IMG/VR virus record: IMGVR_UViG_3300047121_000945 | Location: 1-20,709 of that record | Direction: 5' to 3' (one strand) | Source of the DNA: a virus | Length of the DNA stretch: 20,709 nt | Shown: piece after piece, positions 5,357 through 20,316 of the stretch | Layout: every line of letters begins with the position of its first letter | Numbering within the stretch: position 1 is the first letter of the stretch | Position numbers and translations under genes: made by a program | Notes under the pieces: generated by a model | What the model saw: the letters and a program-made list of their open reading frames with translations, nothing else | What the model was told of the DNA's origin: nothing | The model's database searches: none

Positions 5357-6619
5357 CTACGGCTTATTCACAGGCGGCTGGTTGGCAGGGGGCTGATTGT
5401 TTTGCTCTAAGAGCTTGAGCAGGTTTTGGTACTGCTCCATGAGCTTTTTGAACTGCTCGTCATCGAGCACCGCATTGCCACGTTGCTTCCTGGCGTTGCG
5501 GATCGCTTGCAGAACCAGCGGAATTCCATACTGCAATCCCAACAGCAAGGCGATGCTCGAGCCAGCCGACGTTGCGATCAGTCCGCCAGGAGTCCACTGC
5601 GGACCGATTCGCAATCGATCGGTGATGATCCCAGAGTCCTCCGGTTCCCTAGGCGATGGCCTGATCCTTGGTCGATCGATGATCGAATCCAGAACATCGT
5701 CTTGGACCTGCGACTGAGCCAAAAGCCCAAGTGGCACCTGCATCGGTTCCCCAGAAGTCGTCGAGGGAACTTGGACTATTTCCTGGCTCTCATCGATTTG
5801 GCAGCTCACTTCGCGGGTGCCCGAGGGGAGTCCCTCGAGCGTCGCAGGTAGCTTGCCTCGCATGGCGCTGAGCAAAAACGGAGTCGATTGGCCCAACCCC
5901 TCGCCACCGCCAGCCCAGGTAAGCAAACCGACCACACGAGGTCCATCGTCGCTGTAGTCGATGATGCTCGAACCGCTTCGGCCACCGATGGCTTCAGGCT
6001 TCCACGAAAGAAGCTGACCTTCTTTGCGGTTTAATCGCAATACCTGCAAGCTTGGCCACTCGCACCGCGGGCAACCGAAGGTGGTGATCAGAGACTGGGT
6101 GTTTGGGTAGCGATCGGCAATGGGGATCGGCTCGACATCTTTAGCAAATGCGAGATTGCACTTGAGTAGCGCAAAATCCACGCTGGTCCCTTTGCCGTAC
6201 CCCGATGCGATGATCGCAGCGGTGCTTCGCTCCGATACACCATTGGTATTCCATCGTTCGACGTTGACGGTTCGGCCACGCGTGGTACCTGCAACGTGGG
6301 CATTGGTAAGTACGATCGCGTTGCCCTCGGAAGTCCTACCAACGATGGTACCGCTACCGCAGACGTTGCTTACCGTCACTCGCACCGTTGCTCGGATCAC
6401 TTGATCGAACCGATCTAAAGATGCTGCCAACGACCTGGATCGAGCCTGATTTCTTACAATCGCGAACTCTTCGGTGAATGGATCCAGAACGATCGATCCG
6501 CTTCCGGAATACTGCATGGCTGGGCATTTGCCATCAGGGCACACTCTGTCTTGGCCATGAAGCATGGAAACAAAACACAAAAGCATGTAAACCATGCTTG
6601 CCAGAGAATAAGTCTTCAT
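5357..6619 (-). CDS. Exported trypsin-like serine protease with C-terminal membrane anchor
   Basis: The start is the ATG at 6619 because AAGGAG lies 5 bases before it and a signal peptide follows directly (MKTYSLASMVYMLLCFVSML, cleavage probably near HGQ). The frame is open 88 codons further upstream, but that part looks non-coding. The 420-aa protein has a trypsin-like fold: His108 in LTNAHVAG, Asp148 in SVDFALL and Ser215 in GGRSGSS form the catalytic triad. Cys pairs at 27/32 and 183/186 suggest disulphides. After a Pro/Gln-rich linker there is one membrane-type segment (about 346-373) and a short Lys/Gln-rich helical tail ending in a Pro/Asn-rich stretch. It probably acts in the periplasm or at the envelope. 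It sits inside the virion operon between the DUF2190 capsid gene and the neck genes, so it may be a host-derived extra gene (moron) or serve entry, release or exclusion of other phages. Confidence 0.85.
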   Translation of the reverse strand: MKTYSLASMVYMLLCFVSMLHGQDRVCPDGKCPAMQYSGSGSIVLDPFTEEFAIVRNQARSRSLAASLDRFDQVIRATVRVTVSNVCGSGTIVGRTSEGNAIVLTNAHVAGTTRGRTVNVERWNTNGVSERSTAAIIASGYGKGTSVDFALLKCNLAFAKDVEPIPIADRYPNTQSLITTFGCPRCEWPSLQVLRLNRKEGQLLSWKPEAIGGRSGSSIIDYSDDGPRVVGLLTWAGGGEGLGQSTPFLLSAMRGKLPATLEGLPSGTREVSCQIDESQEIVQVPSTTSGEPMQVPLGLLAQSQVQDDVLDSIIDRPRIRPSPREPEDSGIITDRLRIGPQWTPGGLIATSAGSSIALLLGLQYGIPLVLQAIRNARKQRGNAVLDDEQFKKLMEQYQNLLKLLEQNNQPPANQPPVNKP

Positions 6620-6680
6620 AACGGCTCCTTGGAAATGATTCACAAACAAAACTGAAAATCGAAACGAAGCGACCTCTAGG

Positions 6681-7010
6681 TCACTGACTGATTCGCATCC
6701 GGACGGTCGTGTCTGCGGAGGCTGCTGCTCTGACCACCTTGCCGATCGATTTATTACCAGTAGCCGTGGCAGTCGCGACGTTGTTGGCATCGTCCCAGTA
6801 CAAGATGGTGCCGACTGTGAATGCCACGCCGGTGTTTTTGTTGAAGTCAAACACCCCGTCGACAGCCAGCGCACCGAGTTCACCGGCAGCCAGTGGTCTG
6901 ACCACTACTCCAACAAGATCACCCTGAACCACCACATCCCCGGATTGCAATGCGGATGCAGGGGTGTGGTCGATGTACTTACCATCCTGAATAAAGGTTG
7001 CCTGAGGCAT
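6681..7010 (-). CDS. DUF2190-family capsid protein (decoration or head-fibre type)
   Basis: This is a 109-aa protein beginning MPQATFIQDGKYIDHTPASA. It has the DUF2190 pattern: an N-terminal strand with a 'G..idht' turn, SGDVVVQGDLVGVVVRPLAAGELGALAVDGVFDF, then GTILYWDDANNVAT and a final strand. Members lie next to the major capsid gene in many tailed phages and are regarded as capsid cement or decoration proteins; the old label 'RecA/RadA recombinase' for this family is not supported by sequence. AGGAG precedes the ATG at about 9 bases. It follows the major capsid gene after a 57-base gap. Confidence 0.85.
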   Translation of the reverse strand: MPQATFIQDGKYIDHTPASALQSGDVVVQGDLVGVVVRPLAAGELGALAVDGVFDFNKNTGVAFTVGTILYWDDANNVATATATGNKSIGKVVRAAASADTTVRMRISQ

Positions 7011-13503: not shown

Positions 13504-13777
13504 GCCAGGCTCCCTTCTTTGAGGATTGGCACCGTGGCCCACACGGGGCCCACCGGCGTGTTTTGTTGGCACATGCGAACCCTTGGCCAAGATGGTTTTG
13601 CGAGCGACTTGGCGCAAACCGCCGCCTTTGTTGGGCCACCTGAAAACATGCAAAAAGACTGGAAAAAACATGCTTTCTCGGCTTCATCTGTATCGAACCG
13701 CATGGCTCAATGTGACCACGCGAACGCAAACGCGATCGCAAACGATAGACCCACCCAACCCAAATGGAGAGACAAAG
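13504..13777. promoter_or_regulatory. Divergent intergenic region between the packaging operon and the plus-strand block
   Basis: This 274-base gap separates the leftward 68-aa gene from the rightward amidoligase gene, so it must hold start signals for both. It contains a stem (GGTTTTGCG at 13594-13602 against CGCAAACC at 13613-13620, one bulged base) and, at 13663-13722, a copy of the leader element also found before other plus-strand genes. I could not pin down a convincing -35/-10 pair for the leftward operon. A 67-aa leftward frame (13500-13703) ends in an ATGA overlap with the 68-aa gene but lacks a ribosome site. Confidence 0.5.
13663..13722 (+). promoter_or_regulatory. Repeated promoter-like leader element, copy 1
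   Basis: This copy has AAAAAACAT, CTTTC, CGGCTTCATCT, CGCATGG, then CAATGTG and ACGC. It aligns almost base for base in spacing with the copy at 16861-16925 (CGGCTT to CATGG ends 26 bases on in both) and more loosely with copies at 14774 and 15202. It starts about 100 bases upstream of the amidoligase ATG. A promoter or regulator site is the likeliest role. Confidence 0.45.
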
Positions 13778-14635
13778 ATGAACGCAAACCAGATCGCCTT
13801 CGGAATCGAGTTCGAGACCACCCTGCCAAGCAGCGACACCACACCGATCGGACCATACCACCACGGATACCAAGTACCTTGGCTCCCGACCGGATGGCGA
13901 GCAGAACGCGACGCGAGCATCAAACCAGAAACACCCAACCGCAAGGGATGCGAATTCGTAAGCCCCAAGCTCAAGGGATACGAAGGTCTCAAACAAATCG
14001 AAGACGCGATCGACAAGATCAACGAGCACGACGCGAAGGTCAACGCGAGCTGCGGATTGCACATAACGATCGAATGGAACGGCGACGCGGCCGCCTTGGC
14101 CAGATTGATTTCCCTGGTCGGCAACCACGAAAAAGCGATCTTCGCAAGCACCGGAACACGCAGGCGAGAACAAACGGTCTACACCAAACGGATCAAACAA
14201 TACGGTGATAAAGACGCCGCTAAGAACCGATGCGAAGCGGATCGCTACCACCTGCTGAACCTCACGCACCTGGCCGCGGGCAAGAACCGAATCGAATTCC
14301 GGGCCTTCGCCGGAACGCTCAACAAGACCAAGGTGGTCGGATACCTGATGATGGTCCTGGGGTTGGCAGAGCTGGCGATGAACACCAAACGATGCGCCGA
14401 TTGGGACTACGCCAAGAAAGACGGAACCAAGAGCTGCTGGGATCGACCCGGGGCTGGCCTGGGGGAGACAGAACTCAACCGCCTTTTCTACCGGCTCGGA
14501 TGGACCAAGGGTTGGTACAAGGGTGACCTGCGAAACAAGATCTTCGGCGAGATCACCGGCGAGACCAACCGCGAATGGAAGACGATCAAGAACAAGCTCC
14601 TGGAGATGGCCAAGAAATACGACCAAGCGGCCTAA
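13778..14635 (+). CDS. Amidoligase-family enzyme
   Basis: This 285-aa protein belongs to the amidoligase_2 group of the glutamine synthetase/GCS-like fold, ATP-dependent enzymes that join an amine to a carboxylate. Visible motifs are FGIEFE (8-13) at the N-terminus, WRAERDASI (40-48), CEFVSP (58-63), CGLHITI (92-98, the metal/nucleotide motif usually written CGlHvHv) and RIEFRAFAGTLN (171-182). The ATG at 13778 has GGAG at 8 bases; the frame is open 84 codons upstream but that overlaps the shared leader element. The family occurs in phages and mobile regions, where roles in peptide, cell wall or protein modification have been proposed. No partner peptidase or amidotransferase is adjacent. A strong hairpin terminator follows. 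Confidence 0.88.
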   Translation: MNANQIAFGIEFETTLPSSDTTPIGPYHHGYQVPWLPTGWRAERDASIKPETPNRKGCEFVSPKLKGYEGLKQIEDAIDKINEHDAKVNASCGLHITIEWNGDAAALARLISLVGNHEKAIFASTGTRRREQTVYTKRIKQYGDKDAAKNRCEADRYHLLNLTHLAAGKNRIEFRAFAGTLNKTKVVGYLMMVLGLAELAMNTKRCADWDYAKKDGTKSCWDRPGAGLGETELNRLFYRLGWTKGWYKGDLRNKIFGEITGETNREWKTIKNKLLEMAKKYDQAA

Positions 14636-18117: not shown

Positions 18118-20316
18118 CTACTTAGCGTCGGCCGCACGCATCGGAATCGGTGATGTCCCCGTCCGCTCTAGGATCGCCGGCTTGCCTGTGAAGCGCTGGT
18201 ACCTATCGACGATGACATCGCTGTAAAGCGGATCGAGCTCCATGAGGAACGCATGCCGACCCGTCTGCTGGGCAGCGATCAAGGTCGATCCGCTACCACC
18301 AAAGAGGTCCAGCACATTCTCCCCGGGTCGCGATGAGTACTGCATCGCGCGGACCGCAAGTTCGACGGGCTTCTCGGTAAGGTGGACCATCGACTGCGGA
18401 TTGACCTTCTTGATCTGCCACAGATCCGTAGCGTTGTTGGGCCCGAGATACACGTGCGCGGCCCCCTCGAGCCACCCATAAAAGCAATTGTGGGTGACAA
18501 GCCCGTCGGCAATATAGTGCTCGTGCGTATCGACACCCAGGGAGACAACCTCACCGGAGTAGTCTTGGACATCAACGGCCCGGATCGGACTCCATTCCAC
18601 ACTTTGGCCACGCTGCGGAGTTGGAACCTCCATGCTGCCAGGAAGGAGATTACACGAGCGTACCTGGATCGACTGCCGCGCTCCAAACTTTGCTCTGGTA
18701 TCGCTTGAGTCAACAAACGGATACTTTCGGTTTCGATTGAAATGCGCAAGTGCGTTGCAAGCAGCAGCTTCCTGGGCATCCGCATCAAGTTGACCGTAAA
18801 AGTCTCTGATGTGATCACTTTGCCTGTGCGACGAGCTTCGGTTCGTTACCCAGCATGTCTGAGGAATCCCAAACTGAATCGACACAAGCTGTTCTTGCAT
18901 CCGAGCCTCCGCTGCCGAGTCATGCAGCGAGAGAATCCAAGCTTGGTCTCCTAGCTCATGGAGCAATCTTCCCTTTACACCAAAGCCCCAGGTGGTTCGC
19001 ATCTTGGTCATGCCAACGCGCCACCAAGTGCCACGACGCATCAAATACACGCACCATCGAGATGGGTAATCCGCTGTCATGCGGACGGTCCAGATGTGAC
19101 CATCGGTACCCCAAGATTGCTTCGTTGGAGTCGTTACGCCATAAAGCTTTCCTCCGTAAGGGCGTCTGCCGACTTTGACTCGGTAGCCATCTCGCAAGCC
19201 AACGATTGCTGAGCTGTGCGAGTAATAACTAACCACGCGGTCATCGTCACGCATTTGGCCCAGCGTGCTCGTGCCTCCGGCTGTTTGAACCATGGTATCT
19301 GGCGGTTGGCACCACTCATGGGCTCCCATAAAGTCTTTACGGGTAAGCACCGGATGCATCTTGTCCCAGATGATCGCTTGGCTGAAATACAGACCATGCT
19401 TCCTCAGGAACGGGGGATAGTTGCCGCAGTTGGCATACCCACCCCAGATGTAGAAGCCACGCCCTGGGTCGAGAACCCGAGCCATATTTCCAAACCATGC
19501 ATCGAGCAATCGATCGAACTCTTGATCGCTCACAAAGTCGTTGGCCAGGGGACGATCCTTGGCTCGGAGCTTCTTGTGCGTTGCAGGATGTTTCGGCTTA
19601 CCGGTATCGTGGTCTACCCCAAACGAGGCTGCATTGCCTTGGCCCCCTTTAAGTTTTTTAGAGGCGCTATCGTTAGAAAACGATGACAATCCGGCTGCAA
19701 TCGCGTTGTTAGACCGAGGTTCGACTTTCACGTTGTAGGGTGGATCCGTGTTGACCAGCTGGATGGTCTGGCCACCTAAAAGTCGATCGAGGTCCTCGGG
19801 TTTCGATGAATCGGCGCAGAGTAACCTGTGGTCTCCGAGGATCCAAAGATCACCGGGTTGGGTCACCGCTTCATCTGGAGGTGCCGGCACATCATCCGGA
19901 TCCGTGAGCCCCTCGTTGACGTCGCCACTCATGAGCTTTAGAAGCTCATCGGGATCGAAACCAAGTAGCGACAGATCGAAACCGGCCGTTTGCAGTTCGC
20001 CGAGTTCGATTGGGAGCAGGTCGAAGTTCCAATCGGCAAGTTCCGAACTCTTGTTGTCGGCGATCCGGTAGGCCTTGATCTGCTCTGGGGTAAGATCCAA
20101 AGCCACGTGCACCGGCACCTTCTCAAGCCCAAGCTTGTGCGCGGCTTTGAATCGGGTATGTCCACAGATGATCACCCCTTCGGTATCCACAACAATCGGT
20201 TGTCGGAACCCGAACTCCTTGATGCTACTGGCAACAGCATCGACCGCATCATCATTGATGCGAGGGTTGTTCGGATAGGGTTTGATGTCCGCTATGGGTC
20301 TGATTTCAATCTTCAT
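18118..20316 (-). CDS. ParB-domain DNA adenine methyltransferase interrupted by an intein
   Basis: This 732-aa precursor has GAGGA 8 bases before its ATG. Residues 1-100 are a ParB/Srx-like domain (PYPNNPRIN, IICGHTRFKAAHKLG). The methyltransferase has motif IV DPPY at 191-194 and motif I VLDLFGGSGSTLIAA at 668-682, in that order, as in beta-class amino-methyltransferases; a role in N6-adenine methylation is likely. Residues 336-610 form an intein inserted in the sequence HEW/CFYGW, so the spliced enzyme would be 457 aa. ParB-methyltransferase fusions often lie near phage packaging genes and probably protect phage DNA or mark it. The gene faces the plus-strand block tail to tail. Recognition site and activity cannot be read from sequence. 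Confidence 0.92.
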   Translation of the reverse strand: MKIEIRPIADIKPYPNNPRINDDAVDAVASSIKEFGFRQPIVVDTEGVIICGHTRFKAAHKLGLEKVPVHVALDLTPEQIKAYRIADNKSSELADWNFDLLPIELGELQTAGFDLSLLGFDPDELLKLMSGDVNEGLTDPDDVPAPPDEAVTQPGDLWILGDHRLLCADSSKPEDLDRLLGGQTIQLVNTDPPYNVKVEPRSNNAIAAGLSSFSNDSASKKLKGGQGNAASFGVDHDTGKPKHPATHKKLRAKDRPLANDFVSDQEFDRLLDAWFGNMARVLDPGRGFYIWGGYANCGNYPPFLRKHGLYFSQAIIWDKMHPVLTRKDFMGAHEWCQPPDTMVQTAGGTSTLGQMRDDDRVVSYYSHSSAIVGLRDGYRVKVGRRPYGGKLYGVTTPTKQSWGTDGHIWTVRMTADYPSRWCVYLMRRGTWWRVGMTKMRTTWGFGVKGRLLHELGDQAWILSLHDSAAEARMQEQLVSIQFGIPQTCWVTNRSSSHRQSDHIRDFYGQLDADAQEAAACNALAHFNRNRKYPFVDSSDTRAKFGARQSIQVRSCNLLPGSMEVPTPQRGQSVEWSPIRAVDVQDYSGEVVSLGVDTHEHYIADGLVTHNCFYGWLEGAAHVYLGPNNATDLWQIKKVNPQSMVHLTEKPVELAVRAMQYSSRPGENVLDLFGGSGSTLIAAQQTGRHAFLMELDPLYSDVIVDRYQRFTGKPAILERTGTSPIPMRAADAK
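18487..19311 (-). mobile_element. Intein with a GIY-YIG-like endonuclease domain
   Basis: This encodes residues 336-610 of the methyltransferase precursor. Splicing signals are Cys at position 1 (CQPPDTMVQTAGG), block B TxxH (TDGH, residues 404-407), block F (VVSLGVDTHEHYIADG) and the end VTHN followed by Cys+1. Between the splicing halves, about residues 420-490, lies VYLMRRGTWWRVGMTK, then GVKGRLLHEL and DSAAEARMQEQLVS. This is laid out like a GIY-YIG nuclease (VYL for GIY, RVG for YIG, followed by Arg and Glu positions) rather than LAGLIDADG. All splicing residues seem intact. The flanks rejoin as a normal methyltransferase HEWCFYGW, so removal restores the enzyme. Confidence 0.88.

Follow-up and report, generated by a model that had tools for sequence, protein, structure and literature searches.

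The window, i.e. the whole stretch of 20,709 nucleotides that was analysed, is an IMG/VR viral contig of 20.7 kb whose other genes include a lambda-type portal, a capsid protein and a gpA-type terminase. The capsid gene is adjoined by an ORF with a trypsin-like peptidase domain (Pfam Trypsin_2; 5357-6883, minus strand), and an amidoligase-like protein (Amidoligase_2, E=1e-15) is encoded at 13526-14635 on the plus strand, with the structural genes on the opposite strand. The gene of interest codes for a methyltransferase precursor in which Pfam recognizes ParB_N at residues 4-71 (E=8.8e-9) as well as N6_N4_Mtase (E=1e-23). An intein lies within this precursor, and a further domain is nested within the intein:

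18118..20316, minus strand: ParB-N and N4/N6 DNA methyltransferase, the host gene; 732-aa precursor (20316..18118 translated)
18487..19311, minus strand: intein, 275 aa, precursor residues 336-610, between HEW and CFYGW; delimited by end-to-end homologues, intein-free alleles and an AlphaFold2 (AF2) model
19072..19311, minus strand: N-terminal Hint half-domain (splicing), intein residues 1-80, with Cys1 at 19309-19311 and TDGH at 19096-19107
18670..19068, minus strand: nested GIY-YIG-like domain, intein residues 82-214, between the Hint halves; missing from the mini-inteins L035 and L099
18862..19056, minus strand: predicted catalytic core (intein residues 86-150) within the nested domain, with Y89, R98-V99-G100, R115, W125, A136, E140
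18682..18861, minus strand: helical segment after the core, intein residues 151-210; two helices in the AF2 model, conserved L188/P198
18487..18669, minus strand: C-terminal Hint half-domain, intein residues 215-275; its last residues are HEHYIADGLVTHN, after which comes the extein Cys+1

In the translated precursor, residues 336-610 read CQPPDT...GLVTHN and are followed by CFYGW, and all residues of a class-1 intein are found: Cys1, T69-D-G-H72, H274-N275 and Cys+1. C1, TxxH and N275 are invariant in 57 of 57 non-redundant relatives, at position 274, 45 of them have His and 9 have Gly, and the boundaries that these 57 sequences have in common are the ends of the window intein. The intein C-terminal model TIGR01443 reaches 17.7 bits (cut-off 15.6), and the Pfam model Intein_splicing gives a weak match (E=0.003). 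AF2 predicts a Hint fold (pLDDT 96, pTM 0.91) for which inteins lead the PDB structure matches together with BIL and hedgehog Hint domains, and a profile of 47 relatives matches the solved Hint domains of the MJ0781/KlbA intein, a BIL domain and DnaX. The element is not a chance find: matches that cover at least 80% of the intein occur in 28 public phage records, SPO1 gp34.33 among them, and the majority span its full length and share its termini. Judged by its sequence and modelled structure, it is a complete class-1 intein, in frame in a phage methyltransferase, and it is predicted to splice. The first-pass annotation, which had called an intein with a full set of splicing motifs in a ParB-methyltransferase, was thus exact in its coordinates, its motifs are present and the Hint fold is predicted. 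Its further claim that a methyltransferase is an unusual place for an intein has to be given up, because the N4/N6 methyltransferases of mycobacteriophages and actinophages are already known to harbour inteins (PMC5050341, PMC9957025), and because S. suis phages, a Providencia plasmid and many contigs (viral, Planctomycetota and Fibrobacterota ones) have an intein at the very same site.

A scan of viral contigs for intein-free alleles with the HEWCFYGW junction, which the first-pass annotation had suggested, was productive: at least 120 intein-free viral stretches carry this motif uninterrupted, and each of the stretches listed codes for a protein related to the spliced methyltransferase, with protein identity over the junction being 67-77% in the best 40. 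The existence of such empty alleles in methyltransferase relatives means that the insertion is precise and optional. A very close intein-free allele that would mark a recent homing event was not found among the intein-free alleles compared. Two mini-inteins, L035 (144 aa) and L099 (149 aa), occupy the same site and lack exactly the nested domain; L035 adjoins the loci L021/L022 on the extein tree. In two other intein-containing loci (L025 and L051), the N-terminal flank is FE[LI] and not HEW, the C-terminal flank CFYGW is kept, and the inteins group together, which the exteins do not.

In the AF2 model, the nested domain sits where inteins usually carry their endonuclease, flanked by the two splicing half-domains. 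Its core consists of two strands (residues 86-93 and 96-103), a helix (111-118), a third strand (123-130) and a second helix (133-147), and this beta-beta-alpha-beta-alpha order is the order of GIY-YIG nucleases, for which we took a core of this topology with about 65-100 aa as the criterion of the superfamily. The nuclease-like stretch that had initially been delimited at precursor residues 415-495 agrees well with the predicted core at 417-485. No substitution occurs at Y89, R98, G100, R115, W125, A136 or E140 in any of the 55 relatives that contain the nested domain, and V99 varies. In terms of GIY-YIG positions, Y89 corresponds to the Tyr of GIY, G100 to the Gly of YIG, R115 to the central Arg and E140 to the C-terminal Glu. 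The Tyr of YIG is replaced by the invariant R98 in all 55 relatives, and therefore the catalytic set differs from that of I-TevI. This Tyr is not defining for the whole superfamily, as the T5orf172/MUG113 branch replaces it too; in the sequences of this branch it is usually a Lys, as in VYLMKSGQYYKIGKT. T5orf172 has been described as a GIY-YIG subfamily in which the Glu is needed, with one enzyme being reported to depend on it (PMC10448857). The helical segment at residues 151-210 is a candidate for the DNA-recognition part, and in some closely related pairs it has changed faster than the rest of the intein.

How firmly can the nested domain be assigned to the GIY-YIG class? In a Foldseek comparison with viral models (BFVD), ranks 1-3 were members of its own intein family, and 18 of the 19 informatively named matches among ranks 4-50 were GIY-YIG, Seg, intron, homing or other nucleases, the best match outside the intein family being modest (E=3.5e-3, TM about 0.4, nested domain alone). 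A structure search of the PDB with the model of the nested domain gave no match with a useful score, GIY-YIG structures included, and a sequence profile search of the PDB gave no match either. None of the GIY-YIG models of Pfam matched any of 47 nested domains, and Pfam and PHROGs returned no informative family for the domain alone or for the 47 relatives. Profile-profile comparisons counted as evidence only with families delimited by Pfam-defined coordinates on the correct strands; an hhalign run on sequences that had been picked by a query-like motif was partly circular and was left out. With T5orf172 and MUG113 joined, the alignment is in the GIY/YIG register, and its score was reached by none of 200 column shuffles; with T5orf172 and MUG113 taken separately, 2 and 1 of 200 shuffles reached the score, and with PF01541, whose alignment lies around the catalytic Glu, it was again 2 of 200. 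These pairwise matches cover short motifs of 14-16 columns, each weak alone. The top match of an hmmsearch over 1,852 ORFs near GIY-YIG loci was a motif-level match (i-E 0.046) to VYLMKSGQYYKIGKT of a MUG113 protein. HNH and LAGLIDADG were considered as nuclease classes and rejected, as neither motif nor model matches were seen. On these sequence and model comparisons, we consider the nested domain a true member of the GIY-YIG class that has diverged very far, with the T5orf172/MUG113 branch favoured. The embedded GIY-YIG-like nuclease of the first-pass annotation is thereby supported by topology, invariant Tyr, Gly, Arg and Glu, BFVD neighbours and in-register profile matches, with nuclease activity being predicted. 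The outcome that had been named as its refutation, a different fold devoid of the catalytic Arg and Glu, is not what was found, although no solved GIY-YIG structure matched the model.

The intein family extends to Planctomycetota, Fibrobacterota and cyanobacterial genomes or phages, to SPO1-like, S. suis, phi92-like and Vibrio phages, and to plasmids. UvrD helicases are also among its hosts, with insertions mostly in motif III (GDxxQ^[SC]IY, GD[PS]^CQxI, QLY^CFRG) and once at TIH^SAKGLEW. The UvrD inteins of L081, L082, L012, L015, L016, L017 and L011 are found at three neighbouring motif III registers and, in one case, at TIH^SAKGLEW, which is suggestive of target shifting. Some members reside in hosts with no informative Pfam match (L089, L093 and L074, with the contexts PDRD^CVFDE, RDEK^CPFFD and IDELQD^CSASV). 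The intein of SPO1 gp34.33 (275 aa) has already been annotated, as have inteins in the records of CampHawk and JohannJBalmer; the methyltransferase genes of the Providencia rettgeri plasmid NZ_CP077319.1 (L014) and of the S. suis phage records are unannotated or have no intein annotation. The methyltransferase inteins cluster in a single group of the intein tree, with 98% support, amid helicase-borne ones, and since this is one supported group, the family probably entered the methyltransferase site in a single event, as far as sequences can tell.

Several observations speak for mobility. On the extein tree, the presence of the intein is patchy and requires at least 10 changes, with the starred branches alone forcing at least 4. 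The inteins of L067 and L070 are 90% identical, with N-exteins that are 60% identical; L025 and the window share 76% identity in the extein and 46% in the intein, and the intein of L025 groups with that of L051. Such patchiness, the discordance of intein and extein, and the mini-inteins at the same site are, at the sequence level, the pattern of a homing cycle. The nuclease core is not under more relaxed selection than the splicing domain or the extein, its dN/dS being 0.015-0.05 between the window and its nearest relatives. A separate observation concerns L065 and L103 (IMGVR 3300028048_003164 and 3300021431_000087), in which dS is 0.04-0.12 in the splicing domain and 0.66 in the nuclease core, as if the nuclease block had been swapped inside the intein.

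The selection on the domain, the patchiness and the mini-inteins together make it most likely that we are dealing with a mobile intein that carries a divergent GIY-YIG homing endonuclease. For the window, we hold with good confidence that a class-1 mobile intein resides in a ParB-N4/N6 methyltransferase and that its homing endonuclease is a divergent GIY-YIG enzyme; splicing, cutting, target and homing are what we infer. Splicing would follow the standard route, with an acyl shift at Cys1, transfer to Cys+1 of CFYGW, and a final cyclization of Asn275 that is aided by His274, which would result in a methyltransferase of 457 aa with the junction HEW-CFYGW. The GIY-YIG nuclease, carried by the excised intein or by the intein within the precursor, would use Y89, R115 and E140 to cut intein-free alleles at or near the HEWCFYGW codons, and repair would then copy the intein into the cut allele. 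Somewhat less certain, yet still probable, is the more general reading that this is a widespread, unrecognized family of mobile inteins with an active divergent GIY-YIG homing endonuclease that has moved between UvrD motif III and the methyltransferase site.

What alternatives exist for such a homing cycle? The domain might have retained the GIY-YIG fold and ceased to be a nuclease, serving as a structural or DNA-binding part, with the intein persisting by vertical descent and recombination of phage genes. The loss of the YIG Tyr to R98 in every member would agree with this, cleavage is a prediction, and in some cases intein and extein have diverged in step. We nevertheless regard it as unlikely, as the Arg and Glu of the GIY-YIG set are invariant in all 55 sequences, as very strong purifying selection acts on the core, and as T5orf172/MUG113 enzymes also do without the second Tyr, one of them reportedly being Glu-dependent (PMC10448857). 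Moreover, the patchy occurrence and the intein/extein discordance point to mobility, and the mini-inteins show that the nested domain is dispensable for keeping a splicing element. It is still less probable that the domain belongs to another nuclease class or to a new fold and that its likeness to GIY-YIG is superficial: there is neither a PDB nor a Pfam match for the domain and the sequence profile scores are weak, but the topology, the spacing of the residues, the neighbours in BFVD and the best-ranked match among the 1,852 ORFs (VYLMKSGQYYKIGKT of a MUG113 protein) all agree, and neither motifs nor matches of the HNH or LAGLIDADG kind turned up. The idea that the intein, through regulated splicing, turns methyltransferase activity on or off in the course of infection is very improbable: conditional splicing is known for other inteins, and the precursor is probably inactive because the intein splits a conserved strand of the enzyme, with the DPPY part on one side and the FxGxG part on the other, but there is no sign of regulation in the sequence or in the relatives, and at least 120 relatives do without the intein.

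The mobile intein with a divergent GIY-YIG homing endonuclease, which we thus prefer, can be compared with several known systems. The intein of SPO1 gp34.33, a UvrD-type helicase with relatives in CampHawk, SP82G and Goe10, also has 275 aa, is 34.9% identical to the window intein end to end and has the same Hint and nested-domain residues; it differs in its location in helicase motif III (GDDDQ^SMYSFRG), in its Ser+1, and in that its annotation as an intein names no nuclease class. The S. suis phages (phiD12, Javan558 and others) and the Providencia rettgeri plasmid have the same site (HEP^C...HN^CLYGW), 39-40% identity and the same domains, and in the records examined the gene is labelled as methyltransferase, as ParB-like nuclease or not at all, with the intein being unrecognized. 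The family therefore supplies many unannotated inteins that are hidden in methyltransferase and helicase records. Because the family offers empty sites, mini-inteins, several host genes and several registers, and is present in laboratory phages such as SPO1 and in S. suis prophages, its homing cycle and its target shifting are open to direct tests.

With regard to the nuclease, T5orf172/MUG113 enzymes have the pattern VY[LI]x...[YFW][KR][VI]GxT, in which Lys or Arg stands for the YIG Tyr, and their profile matches that of the nested domain in register. Those known from phages are free-standing homing endonucleases whose DNA-binding domains are separate (PMC10448857), whereas the domain of the window is nested in an intein. 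At the AceL NrdHF locus of a phage-like contig, a class-3 split intein and a GIY-YIG homing endonuclease occur together (PMC7891396), but there the GIY-YIG enzyme is a separate ORF between the halves of a fractured gene (PMC7891396), while the window contains a continuous cis-splicing class-1 intein. The methylase inteins of actinophages and mycobacteriophages (DNMT-1/2; Dorothy, Akhila) and the ShiLan insertion are, like the window intein, mobile elements in N4/N6 methyltransferases (PMC5050341, PMC9957025, PMC11855218); the intein has 327 aa in that case, the additional endonuclease inserts belong either to LAGLIDADG, lying outside the intein, or to HNH, lying out of frame, and no GIY-YIG has been reported for them. 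It was stated in 2006 that GIY-YIG had not been found in inteins (PMC1564403), a survey of huge phages from 2025 lists only HNH and LAGLIDADG domains within other genes and GIY-YIG as stand-alone (PMC12363816), and general reviews count GIY-YIG among the homing endonucleases and name no intein (PMC7765530). In the openly readable literature, we found no description of a GIY-YIG nuclease nested in an intein. As far as we found, the GIY-YIG nuclease, known from introns, thus appears to be new inside inteins. If our reading is true, GIY-YIG joins the nuclease classes that are known to partner with inteins, and if the domain indeed cuts DNA, inteins have captured this class just as introns did.
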